From assembly GCA_949283935.1 (NCBI GenBank), contig CASDUJ010000037.1:1-46917 (forward strand): a stretch of DNA of 46,917 bases, in the 5' to 3' direction. The translations under genes and the position numbers were made by a program. The stretch comes from an uncultured bacterium (GTDB lineage Bacteria; Cyanobacteriota; Vampirovibrionia; Gastranaerophilales; JAILCC01). This document shows positions 3,028 to 11,205 of the stretch, one piece after another (the first letter of the stretch is position 1; each line of letters begins with the position of its first letter). The notes below the pieces were generated by a model. It did not search any database and was not told where the DNA came from. It saw only the letters and a list, made by a program, of their open reading frames with translations.

Positions 3028-5658
3028 ATGGCAGAAACAAAAACAAAAACACAAAAAGAGGCGGTAGAGGGATTAATTGATACCCCCGAAAAGCTGGAAG
3101 CCCTTATTAAAAGGGTAAAAGAAGCGCAAAAAATATTTGCAACATTTCCAGAAGAAAAAATTAACAAAATTTTCAAAGCAGCGGCTACAGCAGCTGACAA
3201 AGCACGTATTCCTTTAGCAAAAATGGCTGTTGAAGAAACAGGCATGGGAGTAGTGGAAGACAAAGTAATAAAGAACCATTTTGCATCGGAATACATATAC
3301 AACAAACATAAAAATGCTAAAACTGTAGGTATAATAAGTCAAGACAAAACTAATGGCATAAAAATTGTAGCAGAACCTTTAGGCTTAATAGCTGGTATCG
3401 TACCTACAACAAACCCAACATCCACAGCTATTTTCAAATCACTTATTGCTTTAAAGACAAGAAATGCAATTATTTTTTCTCCACATCCAAGAGCTAAAAA
3501 ATCTACGATAGAAGCAGCAAAAATAGTTTTAGAAGCAGCAGTAAAAGCAGGCGCACCAGCTGACATAATAGGCTGGATAGACATTCCTTCAATAGAATTA
3601 TCACATATGCTAATGACACACCCTCTTACAGATTGTATTTTAGCAACAGGAGGTCCTGGAATGGTCAAAGCAGCTTATTCTTCAGGCAAGCCAGCTTTAG
3701 GGGTAGGTTCAGGAAATACACCTGCCGTTATAGATGAAACCGCAGACATAAAAATGGCAGTTTCTTCTGTATTAATGTCAAAAACATTTGATAATGGCAT
3801 GATTTGCGCATCAGAACAATCAATAGTAGCAGTTAAAGAAGTATACGATGCTGTAAAAAAAGAACTACAATACAGAGGAGCTTATATTTTAAAGAAAGAA
3901 GAAGCTGAAAAACTGGCGAAAATAATTTTAACCGAAGCAGGAACAGTAAATCCTGCGATAGTAGGACAACCAGCTTATAAAATTGCTGAGCTGGCAGGAT
4001 TTGAAGTTGATAAAAAGACAAAAGTATTGGTAGGTGAATCCAAAAAAGTAGATGTCAAAGACCCATTTGCACACGAAAAACTTTCTCCAGTACTTGCTTT
4101 GTACAAAGCAGAAGATTTTGAACATGCGGTGAATATGGCGCATGATTTAGTATTGTTAGGTGGAGCAGGTCACACATCTGTTTTGTATACAGATCCAAGA
4201 ACTCAAGAAAGAATTAGTAAATTTGCCAAAACATTGCCAACAGGCAGACTTTTAGTAAATTGCCCTTCTTCTCAAGGAGCTATAGGAGATTTATACAATT
4301 TTAGATTAGAACCATCACTAACCCTTGGCTGTGGTTCTTGGGGCGGAAACTCCGTCAGTGAAAACGTAGGGGTAAAACATTTATTAAATTACAAAACCGT
4401 AGCTGAAAGGAGAGAAAATATGCTTTGGTTCAAAGTTCCGCCAAAAGTTTACTTCAAAAGAGGTGCAGTAGATTTAGCACTAAGAGAATTAGAAGGTAAG
4501 AAACGTGCTTTTATAGTAACAGACAGATATTTGTTTAATTCAGGAACAATTTACAATGTAACCAATGTTCTTGATGAAATTGGAATAGATTATCAAATTT
4601 TCTTTGATGTAAAACCAGATCCAACTTTATCTACAATTAACGAAGCATTAAATATTGTAAGACCATTTGAGCCTGATGTAATTATTTCGTTAGGAGGAGG
4701 ATCTCCAATGGATGCAGCCAAAATTATTTGGCTAATGTACGAACATCCAGAAACTAATTTCGAAGATATTTCAATGAGATTCTTAGACATAAGAAAGAGA
4801 ATTTGCTCCATTCCAGAATTAGGCAAAAAGGCAATGATGGTAGCAATACCTACCACATCAGGAACAGGTTCTGAAGTAACGCCATTCTCAATTATTACGG
4901 ACGACAAAACTCACGTAAAATATGCAATTGCAGATTATGCATTAACACCTAACATGGCTATAGTTGACCCCAATTTTGTTGACACAATGCCTAAAGGTCT
5001 TACAGCTGCTTCAGGTATAGATGCATTAGTTCATGCTGTAGAGGCATATGTTTCAATAATGGCAACAAATTTTACAAATTCAAATGCCTTAGAAGCAATA
5101 AAGTTGGTATTTAAATACCTTCCACGTTCATATAAAGAAGGTGCCAATGATCCAATAGCAAGAGAAAAAATGCATTACGCTGCAACAATTGCAGGAATGG
5201 CTTTTGCCAATTCATTTCTTGGTTTATGCCATTCAATGGCTCACAAACTTGGGGCAGCATTTAATCTTCCACACGGGATAGCCAATGCATTGTTGTTTAA
5301 TCAAATAATAAAATACAATGCTACAGATTGTCCGACAAAACAAGGTATATTTCCTCAATACAAATTTCCTAATGCAAAAGCAAAATATGGTCAAATTGCT
5401 GATGAATTAAACCTTGGTGGTAAAAATGATGACGAAAAAGTTGCATTATTAATCAAAGCTATAACAAAATTAAAGAAAGAAATTGAAATTCCAAATTCAT
5501 TAAAAGAAATGGGAATATCAGAAAAAGAATTCTACGGAAAACTTGATGAAATAGTAGAATTAGCATTTGATGACCAATGCACAGGAGCAAATCCATCATA
5601 CCCATTAATGGAAGAAATTAAGCAAATTTACATTGATGCATACAACGGTGTTGTGTAA
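3028..5658 (+). CDS. adhE: Bifunctional acetaldehyde-CoA / alcohol dehydrogenase AdhE
   Basis: The enzyme reduces acetyl-CoA to acetaldehyde and then ethanol with two NADH, a main fermentative NADH sink in the cytoplasm. At 876 residues it is full length for the fusion family. The N-terminal aldehyde dehydrogenase half carries the catalytic Cys260 in FDNGMICASEQ. The C-terminal iron-dependent alcohol dehydrogenase half has GGGSPMDAAKI and TTSGTGSEVTPF. Metal ligands are Asp665, His669, His735 and His749, with the same 4-66-14 spacing as the ligands of E. coli AdhE. The protein family assembles into spirosome filaments. The ATG at 3028 follows AGGAG at 3013-3017. It is followed by a hairpin and then rex; the Rex-like palindrome lies upstream, so NADH-dependent derepression is likely. 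Confidence 0.98.
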   Translation: MAETKTKTQKEAVEGLIDTPEKLEALIKRVKEAQKIFATFPEEKINKIFKAAATAADKARIPLAKMAVEETGMGVVEDKVIKNHFASEYIYNKHKNAKTVGIISQDKTNGIKIVAEPLGLIAGIVPTTNPTSTAIFKSLIALKTRNAIIFSPHPRAKKSTIEAAKIVLEAAVKAGAPADIIGWIDIPSIELSHMLMTHPLTDCILATGGPGMVKAAYSSGKPALGVGSGNTPAVIDETADIKMAVSSVLMSKTFDNGMICASEQSIVAVKEVYDAVKKELQYRGAYILKKEEAEKLAKIILTEAGTVNPAIVGQPAYKIAELAGFEVDKKTKVLVGESKKVDVKDPFAHEKLSPVLALYKAEDFEHAVNMAHDLVLLGGAGHTSVLYTDPRTQERISKFAKTLPTGRLLVNCPSSQGAIGDLYNFRLEPSLTLGCGSWGGNSVSENVGVKHLLNYKTVAERRENMLWFKVPPKVYFKRGAVDLALRELEGKKRAFIVTDRYLFNSGTIYNVTNVLDEIGIDYQIFFDVKPDPTLSTINEALNIVRPFEPDVIISLGGGSPMDAAKIIWLMYEHPETNFEDISMRFLDIRKRICSIPELGKKAMMVAIPTTSGTGSEVTPFSIITDDKTHVKYAIADYALTPNMAIVDPNFVDTMPKGLTAASGIDALVHAVEAYVSIMATNFTNSNALEAIKLVFKYLPRSYKEGANDPIAREKMHYAATIAGMAFANSFLGLCHSMAHKLGAAFNLPHGIANALLFNQIIKYNATDCPTKQGIFPQYKFPNAKAKYGQIADELNLGGKNDDEKVALLIKAITKLKKEIEIPNSLKEMGISEKEFYGKLDEIVELAFDDQCTGANPSYPLMEEIKQIYIDAYNGVV

Positions 5659-5674
5659 ATTAGTCTATAATTAC

Positions 5675-5708
5675 AAAGGGGCAATGTCAAAACTGACAAA
5701 GCCCCTTT
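5675..5708 (+). terminator. Hairpin between adhE and rex (terminator or attenuator)
   Basis: AAAGGGGC (5675-5682) pairs with GCCCCTTT (5701-5708), with an inner TGTCA/TGACA helix (5685-5689 with 5694-5698). This is one of the strongest stems in the window. It is not followed by a run of T (CATGGAATTT), so it may stabilise the adhE mRNA 3' end or terminate only partly, lowering rex and hydrogenase expression relative to adhE. Confidence 0.6.
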
Positions 5709-5736
5709 CATGGAATTTAGATAAAGAAGAATAAAA

Positions 5737-6363
5737 ATGGATATATCAGATAAAGTTATAAATCGTTTAACGTTATATCATTGTATTTTTACGGATTATT
5801 TGGACAAAGATATAGAATTTATTTCAAGTCCGCAAATAGCTAACTTGCTAAAAATTGATGATTCTCAAGTTCGAAAAGATTTAAAATATTTGAACAATGC
5901 AGGTAAATGCAGAGTAGGTTATAAAGTAAATGATTTAAAAGAATCAATAGAAAAGACTTTAGGCTTTCAGAATACGAAAGATACTTTTATTGTTGGTGCA
6001 GGTAATTTAGGGTTAGCATTAACAAAATACGATGATTTTGCAAGTTACGGATTAAATATTTTAGCTTTATTTGATAATGATTCATTAAAAGTAGGAATGA
6101 GTATAAATGACAAAACTGTTTTTCACATAAGCAAACTACCAGATTTAGCAAAAAGACTAAATGTAGAAATGGCAATATTAACTGTTCCAAGGAAATACGC
6201 ACAAGAAGTTACAGATTTTTTGGTTAATTCTGGCATAAAACACATATGGAACTTTGCTCCAAGCATATTAAAGGTTCCTGAGAATGTAAAAGTATGGAAT
6301 GAAAATTTAATGGGAAATTGTTTACAATTTACGGCACGTAACAAAAAAGAGGATAATAAATGA
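5737..6363 (+). CDS. rex: Redox-sensing transcriptional repressor Rex
   Basis: Rex is a homodimeric repressor that releases DNA when NADH binds, switching on NADH-consuming fermentation genes. The 208-residue product has the winged-helix DNA-binding domain (SSPQIANLLKIDDSQVRKDL and KCRVGYKVNDL) and the Rossmann NAD(H) domain with VGAGNLGLAL and the C-terminal NFAPSIL motif. It sits between adhE and the hydrogenase operon. The stop TGA at 6361-6363 overlaps the next ATG at 6360, which indicates translational coupling to the hydrogenase genes. With the palindrome upstream of adhE this suggests that Rex controls ethanol and hydrogen formation and possibly itself. Confidence 0.97.
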   Translation: MDISDKVINRLTLYHCIFTDYLDKDIEFISSPQIANLLKIDDSQVRKDLKYLNNAGKCRVGYKVNDLKESIEKTLGFQNTKDTFIVGAGNLGLALTKYDDFASYGLNILALFDNDSLKVGMSINDKTVFHISKLPDLAKRLNVEMAILTVPRKYAQEVTDFLVNSGIKHIWNFAPSILKVPENVKVWNENLMGNCLQFTARNKKEDNK

Positions 6364-6611
6364 AAACGGAAATAAAAATTTGCATGGGTAGTTCTTGTTT
6401 TGCAAGAGGAAATGACAAAAATTTAGAATACATAGAAGAGTTTATAAAAAGTAACAATCTTGATGCAAAACTTGAATTAATTGGAGCAAGATGCGAAAAT
6501 TTATGTGCAAGTGGTCCAAACGTTATGATAAATGATAAGAAATACACACAAATGACACCAGAAAAGCTTAAAATTATTCTATCAGAACTAAAAAGGAACG
6601 AAAATGAATAA
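6360..6611 (+). CDS. NuoE-like thioredoxin-fold [2Fe-2S] protein, first copy
   Basis: An 83-residue protein with the four-cysteine pattern of thioredoxin-like [2Fe-2S] ferredoxins (NuoE/HndA type): CMGSSC near the N-terminus and GARCENLC in the middle, the latter followed by SGPNVMIN. These small subunits pass electrons between a hydrogenase or NADH module and other Fe-S clusters. It overlaps rex by four bases upstream and the hydrogenase-like gene by eight bases downstream. A second, diverged copy lies at 9492-9755 beside the second hydrogenase, so each hydrogenase has its own partner. The N-terminal helical bundle of full-length NuoE is missing, as in other stand-alone forms. Confidence 0.85.
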   Translation: MKTEIKICMGSSCFARGNDKNLEYIEEFIKSNNLDAKLELIGARCENLCASGPNVMINDKKYTQMTPEKLKIILSELKRNENE

Positions 6612-8325
6612 TCTTTATCCGGTTTACACTCTAAAACAAGAATGTCATGATTGCTACAAATGTATACGTGAATGTCACGTAAAAGCAATAAAAATTGAAA
6701 ACGGAAGCGCATCTGTACTAAACGATAAATGTATAGCATGCGGGCATTGCGTAATAGCTTGTCCTTCAGGAGCAAAAAGAGTAAGAAACGATATAGATAA
6801 AGTAAAAACACTACTCACGGCTCAGAAAAAAATTTACGTATCGCTTGCTCCAAGTTGGGCTGGGGTATACGAACTTTCGATACAACAAATGGTAGCAATA
6901 TTAAAGAAACTTGGCTTTTATGCAATAAGCGAAACAGCATTAGGAGCCCAAGAAGTATCAATAAAATGCGCACAAATTTTAAATAATGGAGCAAATGGAC
7001 TATATATTTCAAGTGCTTGTCCTGTAATAGTCGATTACATAAAATACTACAAACCTGAATTTACGGAAAATATAACTCCAATAGCATCTCCTGCGTTAAC
7101 ACACGCTAAAATACTAAAAGAAACATATGGTAACGAAATAGCAGTTGTATTTATTGGACCTTGTATAGGCAAAAAAAATGAATCAGACAGACATCCTGAC
7201 CTAATAGATGCAGCATTAACTTTTGAAGAACTTAATTTATGGATAAATGATGAATTTATAAACATAAATGAATTAGAAATTAATGAACAAGACAAATTCA
7301 TACCAGATTTTGCTTACGAAGGAGCTTTATATCCAATAGAAGGCGGAATGAATGAAACCATGAAGCAAATAGGTTTAAACAAAGATATTACATTAATTAA
7401 TGTAAGTTCTCTGCCAAGTTTTGAAAAAGCACTTACCGGACTTGAAAAGAATAATTTAAACAAAAAAATATTTGTAGAAGCACTAGCTTGTGATGGGGGC
7501 TGTATAAATGGTCCTTGTATAGCATCAACAAAAGCTAGCATAGCAGTTACAGCAGACATTCTTTCAAAAATCAAATACAGAGAAAATATTCCCAAAGAGC
7601 CAAAAGTAGTAGTAGATATTCCATACAAAGCAAATCCTGTAAGCAAAGAAGAATTTTCATTGGAAGAATTAACTGAAGCAATGAAAAAAATAGGCAAAAC
7701 AACAGAAGCAGATGAGCTTAACTGCGGGGGTTGTGGTTATTCCACATGCAGAGATTTAGCACAAGCTTTAATAAGAGGAGAAGCAGAACCTTCAATGTGT
7801 ATTTCTTATATGAGAAAAACAGCAATGAAAAAAGCAGCAAAAATGCTAAGATGTATGCCTTCGGCAGTTGTAATGGTAGATAAAAATCTTAACATATTAG
7901 AAGCAAATGATGCTTTTATGAGAACATTTTGCGCAGACATGTATGAAATTTTTGCATCAAGACCCGAAGGAGTTACCGGAGCGGCAATAGAAAGACTTAC
8001 TCCATTTGCAGATATATTCAAAAATACTTTAAAAACAGGTCAAGACATTCACAAAGAACATTTTCCGCACGAAAACAAATTATATGACATAAATGCATTT
8101 ACGATTGAAAGTGGAGAAATAGCAGGAGCAGTAATTACAGATGTAACTAAATCAGAAATGGACAGAGAAAAAATAGCTAGAAGAGCAAGAGAAGTAATTA
8201 GTAAAAATATTGCAACTGTTCAAGATATAGCCTGCCTACTTGGAGAGCACATGGTAGAAACGGAGCTTTTACTAAGTTCTATTGCGGAAGATTTTGAAAC
8301 CACACAGGAAAAAGAGGGCGAATAA
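6604..8325 (+). CDS. PAS-containing [FeFe]-hydrogenase-like protein with sensory-type active site
   Basis: The 573-residue protein begins with two [4Fe-4S] ferredoxin motifs (Cys14/17/20/24 and Cys43/46/49/53). The H-cluster domain follows: L1 is SSACP at 136-140, L2 is GPCIGKKNE around Cys187, and L3 is EALACDGGC ending at Cys300. Cysteines that would hold the H-cluster (139, 187, 296, 300) are present, but the usual proton-transfer Cys of TSCCP is Ala138, as described for putative sensory [FeFe] hydrogenases (HydS type). After it come a Cys-rich Fe-S domain (Cys374, 377, 382, 399; CGGCGYSTC) and a PAS domain (about 412-510). It has no kinase or output domain, but the next gene, overlapping by one base, is a phosphatase. 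I infer a hydrogen or redox sensor that signals through that phosphatase. Confidence 0.88.
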   Translation: MNNLYPVYTLKQECHDCYKCIRECHVKAIKIENGSASVLNDKCIACGHCVIACPSGAKRVRNDIDKVKTLLTAQKKIYVSLAPSWAGVYELSIQQMVAILKKLGFYAISETALGAQEVSIKCAQILNNGANGLYISSACPVIVDYIKYYKPEFTENITPIASPALTHAKILKETYGNEIAVVFIGPCIGKKNESDRHPDLIDAALTFEELNLWINDEFININELEINEQDKFIPDFAYEGALYPIEGGMNETMKQIGLNKDITLINVSSLPSFEKALTGLEKNNLNKKIFVEALACDGGCINGPCIASTKASIAVTADILSKIKYRENIPKEPKVVVDIPYKANPVSKEEFSLEELTEAMKKIGKTTEADELNCGGCGYSTCRDLAQALIRGEAEPSMCISYMRKTAMKKAAKMLRCMPSAVVMVDKNLNILEANDAFMRTFCADMYEIFASRPEGVTGAAIERLTPFADIFKNTLKTGQDIHKEHFPHENKLYDINAFTIESGEIAGAVITDVTKSEMDREKIARRAREVISKNIATVQDIACLLGEHMVETELLLSSIAEDFETTQEKEGE

Positions 8326-9482
8326 TGTTTATAGATATTGATTGTACTCAAGAAAAAAAATACAATCAAAACACATATGGAGATTATTTTGTTTCGAAAA
8401 GATATCCTGAAGCAGGAAGACTTGTAGCAGTACTTTCTGATGGTTTAGGAAGTGGAATAAAAGCTAATATATTAGCTTGCATGACATCTACAATGTTGTT
8501 AAAATTTGTTGAAGCTGAATCAGACATACAAAAAGCTTGTGAAATTATTTTAAATTCATTGCCTGTATGTAAAATAAGGAAAATAAGCTATTCGACATTT
8601 TCCGCAATTGATTGTGACGATGAGGGGAATGCTAAAATAGTAGAAGAGGGTAATCCACAATTTTTATGGATTAGAAATAACCAAATCCTTGAACCTCAAT
8701 ATCGAATAATAACCTCAAAAACATTTTCAAACAGACATATGCATATATACAAAATAAAGCTAGAAAAAGGAGACAGACTTATATTTTGTTCAGATGGAGT
8801 TACACAAGCTGCATTAGGCTCCAAAGATTTAAGACTTGGTTTAAAAAGAGAAGGCTTGATTGATATAGTGTTAAAAGAATTATCAACCGAACCTAACATT
8901 TCCTCAAGAGAACTTTCGCGCAGGATAGTCAAATCTGCTTTAATAGCAGAACCCGACCATAAAGCAAAAGATGACATATCAGCTTTGTGCGTATATTACA
9001 GAGACCCAAGAGAAAGTTTAATATTTACAGGGCCGCCATATCATCAAGCAAAAGATTCAATTTATGCTCATACTTTTTTTAATTTTCAAGGGAAAAAAGC
9101 AGTTTGCGGCGGAACCACAGCCAATCTTATTTCAAGGGAATTAGGAATACCAGTAAGAAATGATCTACACCAAATTTCAGGTAAACTACCTTCAATTTCT
9201 CACATGGAAGGAATAGATCTTGTAACCGAAGGCATATTAACTTTAACCAAAGCATGTGAATATTTAGAAACAGAAGAAATAGGAAAAGATGCAGCAGGAG
9301 AACTGGTAAAATTTTTACTGGATAGTGATTGTATTACATTTATGGTAGGTGCTAAACTTAACCAAGCACATTATGATCCTACTTTACCGGTAGAAATAGA
9401 AATAAGAAAAAATATAATAAAAAAAATGAAAAAATTACTTGAAGACAAATACATAAAAAAAGTTACGGTACAATATATGTGA
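8325..9482 (+). CDS. PP2C/SpoIIE-type serine phosphatase with an extra C-terminal domain
   Basis: The 385-residue protein has the PPM metal-binding aspartates: GDYF (Asp20), LSDGLGSG (Asp39), CSDG (Asp157) and KDDISALCV (Asp216-217). SpoIIE-like phosphatases remove phosphate from serine on anti-sigma-factor antagonists or other targets. Residues from about 228 on form an additional domain (GGTTANLISRELGIPV near 262-277) that is not part of the catalytic core; I recall similar extensions only beside hydrogenase genes. The ATG overlaps the stop of the PAS hydrogenase-like gene by one base, so the two are made together. It could be the output of a hydrogen-sensing unit. No anti-sigma kinase or antagonist gene is seen next to it. 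Confidence 0.85.
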   Translation: MFIDIDCTQEKKYNQNTYGDYFVSKRYPEAGRLVAVLSDGLGSGIKANILACMTSTMLLKFVEAESDIQKACEIILNSLPVCKIRKISYSTFSAIDCDDEGNAKIVEEGNPQFLWIRNNQILEPQYRIITSKTFSNRHMHIYKIKLEKGDRLIFCSDGVTQAALGSKDLRLGLKREGLIDIVLKELSTEPNISSRELSRRIVKSALIAEPDHKAKDDISALCVYYRDPRESLIFTGPPYHQAKDSIYAHTFFNFQGKKAVCGGTTANLISRELGIPVRNDLHQISGKLPSISHMEGIDLVTEGILTLTKACEYLETEEIGKDAAGELVKFLLDSDCITFMVGAKLNQAHYDPTLPVEIEIRKNIIKKMKKLLEDKYIKKVTVQYM

Positions 9483-9491
9483 GGAATAAAG

Positions 9492-9755
9492 ATGAAAGAA
9501 ATTAATGTCAATGTATGCTTAGGAACAACTTGTTTTGTAATGGGGGGAACAAATCTCAATGAATTGTTAGAAATTGTTCCAAAAAAATACGGAGATAAAG
9601 TAAAAGTATCTGGAAGTCCTTGTTTAGGTTTATGTTCTATTAACTGGGAATATTCCAAAGCTCCTTATGTTAAAGTTAATAATGAAGTAGTTGCAGAAGC
9701 AACTGTAGAAAAAGTTCTAAATGAAATAGAAAGACAAATGACAAATGAACAATAA
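9492..9755 (+). CDS. NuoE-like thioredoxin-fold [2Fe-2S] protein, second copy
   Basis: An 87-residue ferredoxin of the same type as 6360-6611, with CLGTTC and GSPCLGLC as the cluster ligands and SKAPYVKVNNEVV as the C-terminal strand pair. A GAGGA ribosome site lies just before the ATG at 9492. It overlaps the start of the following hydrogenase gene by 11 bases. It is the likely electron-transfer partner of that hydrogenase. No NuoF-like flavoprotein is seen in the operon, so if NADH is used it must come from a subunit encoded elsewhere. Confidence 0.85.
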   Translation: MKEINVNVCLGTTCFVMGGTNLNELLEIVPKKYGDKVKVSGSPCLGLCSINWEYSKAPYVKVNNEVVAEATVEKVLNEIERQMTNEQ

Positions 9756-11205
9756 TTCACAAGCAATACACCTAAAAAAAGAAATATTAATAAGATTAGT
9801 AAAAGCATTTTTTTCAGAAAATTTTCCGCAAAATGCCAGATTAATTCCATATGATATGAGACCAAAAGGTTCTGAAGTACCTTATAGATGTTGTATTTAT
9901 AAAGAACGAGCTATTTTAAAAGACAGATGCATAGCAGGACTAGGTTTTGCTATAGAAGAAGATGATGAAACTAGACTTTTGTCAGACTATGCTCAAAAAG
10001 CATTAGAAAGAGAAATTCCTCAAAATGATCCCCTAACAGTACTTGATGCAGCTTGCAAAGGATGTGTTCCGAGCAGGGTATACGTAACAAATTTATGTCA
10101 AGGCTGTGTAGCTAGACCTTGTCAATCAACTTGTAAATTTGGAGCCATAAGCATAGTAGATGGAAAATCTGTTATAGATGGTACAAAATGCAAAAACTGC
10201 AAAATGTGTATATCAGCTTGTCCTTATAATGCTATAGTAAAACTTGTTGTTCCTTGCGAAGATGCCTGCCCTGTAGGAGCGATAGCTAAAGATGAAAATG
10301 GACATGCCAAAATTGATTTTGACATATGTATAAATTGCGGCAAATGTATAGATGCTTGTCCTTTTGCAGCTGTACACGAAAAAAGTCAAATAATTGACAT
10401 TTTAAGAAGAATAAAAGAAGGCAAAAAAGTTATTGCAATGATTGCCCCATCTATAGTTGGACAATTTCCTGGAAGCATATACCAATTAAAATCTGCAATT
10501 AAGAAGGCAGGATTTTATGATGTATACGAAGTTGCTCAAGGTGCAGACATAACATCATTAAACGAGGCAAAAGAATTTGCAGAACGAATGGAAAGAGGCG
10601 AAAAATTCATGACAACTTCTTGTTGTGCAGGCTACAACCAACTTATAAAAAAGCACATGCCCGAAATAAAACCATATGTTTCAACAACAAAAACTCCTTT
10701 GTTTTACACAGCTGAATTAGTAAAGAATAAAGTGCCGGATTCAATAACAGTATTTGTAAGTCCTTGTGTAGCTAAAAGAACAGAAGGAATGGAAAATCCA
10801 AATATTGATTTTGTTATGAATTACGAGGAACTTGGTGCTTTATTTGTAGGAAGAAAAATTGAAATTTTAAGTTGTGAAGAAGAAAAATTCGACAAAGAAA
10901 GCTCAAAGCAAGGCAGAAATTTTGGAGTAACAGGAGGGGTAGCAAAAGCAGTACAAGATGCTTCCGATAAACAAGATTCAATAAAACCATGCATAATAAG
11001 TGGCCTAAACAAAGATTCAATAAAGCAACTAAAAAAAATGGCAAAAGATGGTTGTAATTCTGATGGATGTAATTTAGTAGAAGTTATGTGTTGCGAAGGC
11101 GGTTGCGTAAGAGGCAATGCTACTATTAACAATAGCAGAAGTGCCTATAAAGTTCTCAATGAATTTGTAGAAAATAGCCCTGAAATAAAAGAACCAAAAA
11201 AATAA
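9745..11205 (+). CDS. [FeFe] hydrogenase, catalytic type (group B-like)
   Basis: This 486-residue enzyme should make or oxidise hydrogen with reduced ferredoxin or the adjacent [2Fe-2S] protein. The N-terminal 100 residues are of unknown type; then many cysteines (105-201) form several [4Fe-4S] sites, including CKNCKMCISACP and CINCGKCIDACP. The H-cluster domain has L1 TSCCAGY (Cys293, Cys294), L2 SPCVAKRTE (Cys341) and L3 EVMCCEGGC (Met448, Cys450, Cys454). Both L1 cysteines are kept, unlike the PAS protein upstream, so proton transfer should work. Pro to Ala after the Cys pair is slightly unusual. I assign it to group B only tentatively. The H-cluster maturases HydE, HydF and HydG are not in this window. 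It ends two bases before a convergent gene. Confidence 0.92.
   Translation: MNNNSQAIHLKKEILIRLVKAFFSENFPQNARLIPYDMRPKGSEVPYRCCIYKERAILKDRCIAGLGFAIEEDDETRLLSDYAQKALEREIPQNDPLTVLDAACKGCVPSRVYVTNLCQGCVARPCQSTCKFGAISIVDGKSVIDGTKCKNCKMCISACPYNAIVKLVVPCEDACPVGAIAKDENGHAKIDFDICINCGKCIDACPFAAVHEKSQIIDILRRIKEGKKVIAMIAPSIVGQFPGSIYQLKSAIKKAGFYDVYEVAQGADITSLNEAKEFAERMERGEKFMTTSCCAGYNQLIKKHMPEIKPYVSTTKTPLFYTAELVKNKVPDSITVFVSPCVAKRTEGMENPNIDFVMNYEELGALFVGRKIEILSCEEEKFDKESSKQGRNFGVTGGVAKAVQDASDKQDSIKPCIISGLNKDSIKQLKKMAKDGCNSDGCNLVEVMCCEGGCVRGNATINNSRSAYKVLNEFVENSPEIKEPKK

Follow-up and report, generated by a model that had tools for sequence, protein, structure and literature searches.

The window analysed here, a stretch of DNA of 46,917 bp, corresponds to contig C37 in a genome of 1.73 Mb (97% complete) from the cyanobacterial phylum. 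It carries a gene for a sensory-type [FeFe] hydrogenase with a PAS domain, HydS (hfsB, 6604..8325, 573 amino acids), followed by a gene for a SpoIIE/PP2C-type phosphatase, HfsC (hfsC, 8325..9482, 385 amino acids); all features described in the window are on the plus strand. We consider it likely that this locus is an hfs-type, phosphatase-linked sensory cluster (HydDB group C3) which signals through HfsC by the mechanism set out below. HydS was assigned from the reading of its open reading frame, from Pfam and from a tree, HfsC from its SpoIIE domain (PF07228, 2.2e-14). As stated in the original prediction, which had been made from the letters of the window, the two genes overlap by one base, hfsC starting with the final base of the stop codon of HydS (TAATG). 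The same prediction had treated the two genes as a unit of their own. The pair is real, but it belongs to a seven-gene cluster, adhE-rex-hfsA1-hfsB(HydS)-hfsC-hfsA2-hfsD (3028-11205, Pfam and NCBIfam), of which adhE, rex, two [2Fe-2S] proteins and a group B hydrogenase had been missed. The order hfsA-hfsB-hfsC-hfsD on one strand is that of the hfsABCD operon type, with an extra hfsA2 between hfsC and hfsD. To judge from the size of the genome, its fermentation genes and its relatives, the host lineage is probably a nonphotosynthetic, Gastranaerophilales-like relative of the Cyanobacteria.

The pairing of HydS with the phosphatase was surveyed in 292 genomes of the phylum, plus plasmid records. 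HydS-like proteins were found at 103 places in 102 of these genomes, and at 101 of the 103 places hfsC is the next gene on the same strand, 2–165 nucleotides away. Of the two unpaired places, one (G260) falls at a contig break, and at the other (G013:C62) HydS forms a fusion with a histidine kinase. With 101 of 103 places paired, the adjacency is not due to chance, and the co-conservation of the two genes, which the original prediction had proposed to count across genomes, is borne out. In the window and in L004, L039, L040, L045, L046, and L066 the hfs genes come immediately after adhE and rex; in L056, L057, and L061 a divergent rex is found at this place. A scan of genome contigs for HydS returned a single close relative, L004. 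The record of L004 is named as a metagenome-assembled genome of a 'Heliobacteriaceae bacterium'; its HydS and HfsC group with the window's order of the cyanobacterial phylum, and the record is likely misnamed.

HydS has a C-terminal tail (residues about 525-566, 8176..8301) that was recognized by motif and profile searches (motif VQDIACLLGEHMVET), and its final ~45 residues bear the pattern QxIAxLLGExxxET. A profile built from six HydS tails of the window's order was searched on 3,674 open reading frames of the fetched loci. It matched HydS proteins, including those of Ruminococcus albus, Monoglobus, and Acetoanaerobium noterae, and ten stand-alone PAS proteins from photosynthetic cyanobacteria, and no other open reading frame. 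The bare motif was present in 53 of the 3,674 frames, namely 43 of HydS size and the ten PAS proteins, which are of the hox type described below. All phosphatase-type HydS proteins that were examined have the tail; fusions of HydS with a histidine kinase (L055, L072) or with an MCP-like domain (L073) lack it. Its sequence is nearly identical in R. albus (VQEIASLLGETTAETK) and in cyanobacteria (AQEIAGLLGETTAETK). This distribution suggests that the tail is the contact of HydS with HfsC.

Full-length HfsC homologues, C-terminal domain included, were found in ten photosynthetic genomes (33-36% identical). In six of these (L078, L079, L080, L081, L085, and L086) the gene order is hoxH, an HfsA-like [2Fe-2S] protein, a PAS protein with the tail, and HfsC. 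The last three genes, situated for example at L078:7877-9881 and L079:7116-9163, thus lie downstream of hoxH, a gene of the HoxEFUYH [NiFe] hydrogenase, and in L078, L085, and L086 hoxW follows the cassette. In G187 the genes for HoxH, HfsA, and PAS stand together and hfsC is located elsewhere; in G262 (L094), a congener of two carriers, hoxH is directly beside hoxW, exactly the cassette being missing. HoxH is present in 10/10 phototrophs carrying HfsC, whereas of the 190 genomes that lack HydS only 66 have it (P = 1.6e-5 if the draws were independent, a value that is overstated because the carriers are related). The phototroph HfsC proteins form one clade (99/99) separate from the window's order. 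Searches of the open-access literature gave no description of this hox cassette. The extra open reading frames of the Synechocystis 6803 hox operon, sll1222, ssl2420, and sll1225, were considered as candidates for it and are ruled out by published descriptions as a toxin–antitoxin pair and a DUF820 protein (PMC4963859).

In hfs operons the PAS domain of the cassette is fused to the [FeFe] sensor domain, and in hox operons the same three genes occur without an [FeFe] domain. In the latter, the role of the input would therefore fall to the bidirectional [NiFe] hydrogenase itself (or to its diaphorase). The arrangement would make HfsA-PAS/tail-HfsC a transferable signalling cassette with a changeable input domain. 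Whether it really is a self-contained signalling cassette for the status of two unrelated hydrogenase classes, with Hox as the input in hox operons, is in our view an evenly balanced question. If so, Hox would gain a phosphatase-based regulator; the physiological function of the cyanobacterial bidirectional hydrogenase is still called unclear in one account (PMC4517062). Current papers continue to qualify sensory [FeFe] hydrogenases as 'putative', since a signal path has yet to be demonstrated for them, and the tail together with the [FeFe]-free hox cassette points to a likely contact surface and to a split of input from output.

HydS itself has the domains of a sensory-type enzyme. An N-terminal 2x[4Fe-4S] domain (residues 11-57, 6634..6774, Fer4 families) with the cluster cysteines C14/17/20/24 and C43/46/49/53 precedes the H-domain (residues 75-304, 6826..7515, PF02906 1.8e-46). 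Alignment to the genome's own group A protein places all four H-cluster ligands (C139, C187, C296, and C300), which are intact as had been predicted. The L1 motif reads SSACP (residues 136-140, 7009..7023, direct reading), with Ala138 replacing the proton-transfer cysteine. The position of CpI M353 is occupied by Gly185 and that of M497 by Leu. The predicted Cys-rich Fe-S domain followed by PAS was also found: the former is the FeS family PF04060 (residues 372-400, 6.4e-12) and contains the additional [4Fe-4S] motif of sensory groups C/D (residues 374-399, 7723..7800) in the exact spacing C374-x2-C377-x4-C382-x16-C399. The PAS domain (residues about 413-516, 7840..8151) is weak in Pfam (PAS_8, E = 0.0014, under the Pfam cut-off) and was assigned from these matches and from its end-to-end alignment with the stand-alone PAS proteins of the hox cassettes, which are above the cut-off (PAS_9, 1.2e-9). 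AlphaFold models from two-sequence alignments (the window protein and L004 only) had mean pLDDT (predicted local distance difference test) values of 38.5 for HfsC and 39.7 for HydS, too low for use.

In a maximum-likelihood tree of 29 H-domains, from which the HydDB reference sequences were left out, the HydS sequences form one clade (support 100/100) that joins the PAS-type HydS of G013 (94/96). A branch with a support of 100/97 parts HydS from group A (the HydA of contig C26 of the same genome and others) and from group B (HfsD), so that the placement outside the catalytic group A anticipated by the original prediction was obtained. How the sensory types branch relative to one another is unsure in detail because of long branches. 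As to the exchange of Cys to Ala, which had been put forward as a mark of sensory enzymes, the Ala is present here but does not define the class. In the window's order the HydS proteins read have SSACP with one exception (SSCCP, L058), whereas the phosphatase-linked relatives have SSCCH in R. albus and Monoglobus and TSSCP in A. noterae, and Ala occupies the position in only about 43% of sensory sequences (PMC10055695). Since Acetoanaerobium has Ser there, and R. albus, Monoglobus, and L058 have Cys, Ala at L1 is common in the phosphatase-linked sensory class and not diagnostic of it. The L1-Cys HydS of L058 (G279) is paired with the order's most divergent HfsC (52% identity). Genome G263 has, in addition to the phosphatase-linked type, a HydS fused to a PAS-histidine kinase-receivers protein (C1-like, L072:2745-5822, minus strand) and a HydS with an MCP-like domain (C2-like, L073), both with Pro at the L1 position (SQPCP).

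HydDB defines [FeFe] group C3 as 'phosphatase-linked (putative)' (PMC5037454). A sensory-type H-domain outside groups A and B with the four H-cluster cysteines, a PAS domain after Cx2Cx4Cx16C, and a conserved adjacent Ser/Thr phosphatase are all present in the window, and no difference from this group was found. The hfsABCD operon of Thermoanaerobacterium saccharolyticum (PMC5707799, PMC11837493) likewise consists of HfsA, the PAS-hydrogenase HfsB, the serine phosphatase HfsC, and the hydrogenase HfsD, and shares a regulatory link to adhE; by gene content the window, from a different phylum, adds hfsA2 and the physical linkage to adhE-rex. The megaplasmid pRUMAL01 of R. albus 7 (L096; PMC6776011) carries rex-adhE-phosphotransferase-hfsA-hfsA-HydS-SpoIIE-hydrogenase, a gene content that, apart from the phosphotransferase, matches that of the window, with HydS 32% and HfsC 30% identical; in R. 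albus rex precedes adhE and L1 is SSCCH. TmHydS of Thermotoga maritima (group C; PMC10055695) shares with HydS the Ala at CpI C299, the Gly at M353, Cx2Cx4Cx16C, and PAS, and differs at the M497 position (Ser in TmHydS, Leu in the window). TamHydS of Thermoanaerobacter mathranii (group D; PMC8163306) also has two N-terminal clusters and Cx2Cx4Cx16C but lacks PAS; with its PAS domain and with Gly185 instead of Ser/Thr at M353, HydS does not fall into group D (TamHydS, M2e). Because the work on group C3, R. albus, and hfs is already published, the window cluster represents a type that has been described before, here in a new taxon.

The phosphatase HfsC contains the aspartates of the motifs G19-D20, D39-G40, D157-G158, and D216-D217, which are invariant across 14 homologues. 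Behind the catalytic domain follows a C-terminal domain of ~158 residues (residues about 228-385, 9006..9479; conserved GPP, CGGTT, and LVTEGILTL in the alignment) which is kept in both hfs and hox loci; searches of Pfam and the PDB gave no match to it, even when an alignment of nine members was used. A scan of viral contigs for HfsC returned none. The original prediction had assumed an unknown phosphoserine target. As HfsC belongs to the SpoIIE family, it could act as a partner-switching phosphatase on a STAS anti-anti-sigma factor, like SpoIIE and RsbU, with which it shares the SpoIIE-type PP2C domain and its conserved aspartates. In contrast to these, HfsC has no N-terminal regulatory domain and has a C-terminal domain of its own. 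Its gene is the only one for a SpoIIE phosphatase in the 97%-complete window genome, and the sole STAS protein there (motif NIDIIGFG) has no Ser/Thr at the position that we take, from SpoIIAA, to be the usual phosphosite. Searches of this genome for an RsbW/SpoIIAB-type kinase gave no HATPase_c_2 match above the cut-off, and no Hanks kinase was found. Lacking a Hanks kinase, a clear RsbW-type kinase, and a phosphorylatable STAS protein, the genome makes a canonical STAS phosphoserine target and classical partner switching unlikely as far as gene content can tell, and for HfsC itself we regard this role as highly improbable. The substrate of HfsC therefore has to be sought elsewhere. R. albus carries, between adhE and hfsA, a gene for an APH/RIO-like phosphotransferase (L096:5956-6702), a possible kinase counterpart of HfsC; a homologue was sought in the window genome and not found.

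We propose the following mechanism. A slow H-cluster of HydS would equilibrate with H2 and the cellular ferredoxin pool, with the HfsA ferredoxins as the likely electron partners. The redox state may be relayed via the C-terminal [4Fe-4S] cluster to PAS, and PAS, via the QxIAxLLGE tail that tracks the phosphatase, would set the activity of the separate HfsC, either by activation or by release of inhibition. To judge from R. albus and Thermoanaerobacterium, the Ser/Thr target dephosphorylated by HfsC would adjust the adjacent fermentation genes (adhE-rex-hfsD) or their enzymes, and a build-up of H2 would cause a shift to ethanol and to the ferredoxin-linked hydrogenase. When R. albus grows together with an H2-consuming partner, its hydS cluster is down 111-fold, and signalling from HydS to the phosphatase has already been proposed there (PMC6776011); in T. 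saccharolyticum deletion of hfsB raised the adhE transcript 2-3-fold and increased ethanol (PMC5707799). The passage of the H2 signal to the phosphatase, as originally predicted, is thus a reasonable interpretation that is partly supported and already in print (PMC5037454, PMC6776011, PMC5707799, PMC11837493); H2 sensing by HydS and its control of HfsC are putative.

Alternatively, HydS could read the cellular redox or ferredoxin state and not H2, receiving electrons from ferredoxin or HfsA, with the H-domain only helping to set the potential. HfsA-like [2Fe-2S] proteins stand beside the PAS–phosphatase pair in nearly all of the observed architectures, including the H-domain-free hox cassette. 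Against this, the H-domain and its four ligands are retained in the aligned HydS proteins and the response of R. albus follows H2 (PMC6776011), and we think this alternative possible but rather unlikely.

Several points weigh against signalling through HfsC. The HfsC and HydS genes of A. noterae are ~0.9 Mb apart, a canonical substrate or kinase for HfsC was absent from the searches of the window genome, and no direct assay of H2 sensing or of the phosphatase was found in the literature for any member. Furthermore, after deletion of hfsABCD in T. thermosaccharolyticum the high-ethanol phenotype came back when hfsD alone was re-expressed (PMC11837493, 2025). The hfs genetics therefore do not prove signalling by HfsC, and hydrogen cycling through HfsD may instead account for the hfs phenotypes. 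HydS could then act chiefly as a slow metabolic hydrogenase or as a partner of HfsD, with HfsC as a bystander and the phenotypes arising from electron flow; the restoration by hfsD alone and the L1 cysteine in HydS of R. albus, Monoglobus, and L058 would fit. This explanation has to contend with the near-absolute pairing of HydS with HfsC, with the phosphatase-specific tail, and with the low activity of TmHydS, an enzyme of the same type (PMC10055695), and it appears improbable to us. Concerning A. noterae, its hfsC (L098:8986-10167) follows a pair of CoA-transferase-like genes and has no hydrogenase gene as a neighbour.

The remaining genes of the cluster surround the HydS–HfsC pair, and genes overlap all along rex-hfsA-hfsB-hfsC and again at hfsA2-hfsD. 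The first gene, adhE (3028..5658), encodes a bifunctional acetaldehyde-CoA/alcohol dehydrogenase (NCBIfam NF010378, 1388.9 bits, cut-off 951). It is followed by rex (5737..6363) for the NADH/NAD+-sensing repressor (NF003994, 227 bits, cut-off 130), which overlaps hfsA1 by 4 bases. A Rex operator (TTGTTAANNNNTTAACAA, at most three mismatches) was sought near adhE/rex; the window contains 26 matches versus 22.7 expected, none of them convincing. The thioredoxin-fold [2Fe-2S] ferredoxin encoded by hfsA1 (6360..6611, PF01257 7.5e-13, 8-base overlap with hfsB) has four conserved cysteines in a pattern common to HfsA of R. albus and of the hox cassettes. Downstream of hfsC, hfsA2 (9492..9755, PF01257 1.4e-6) encodes a second ferredoxin of this fold and overlaps hfsD (9745..11205). 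The product of hfsD is a catalytic-type hydrogenase assignable to [FeFe] group B1 (TIGR04105, 508 bits, above the curated cut-off of 450), and its L1 motif, TTSCC, retains the cysteine.

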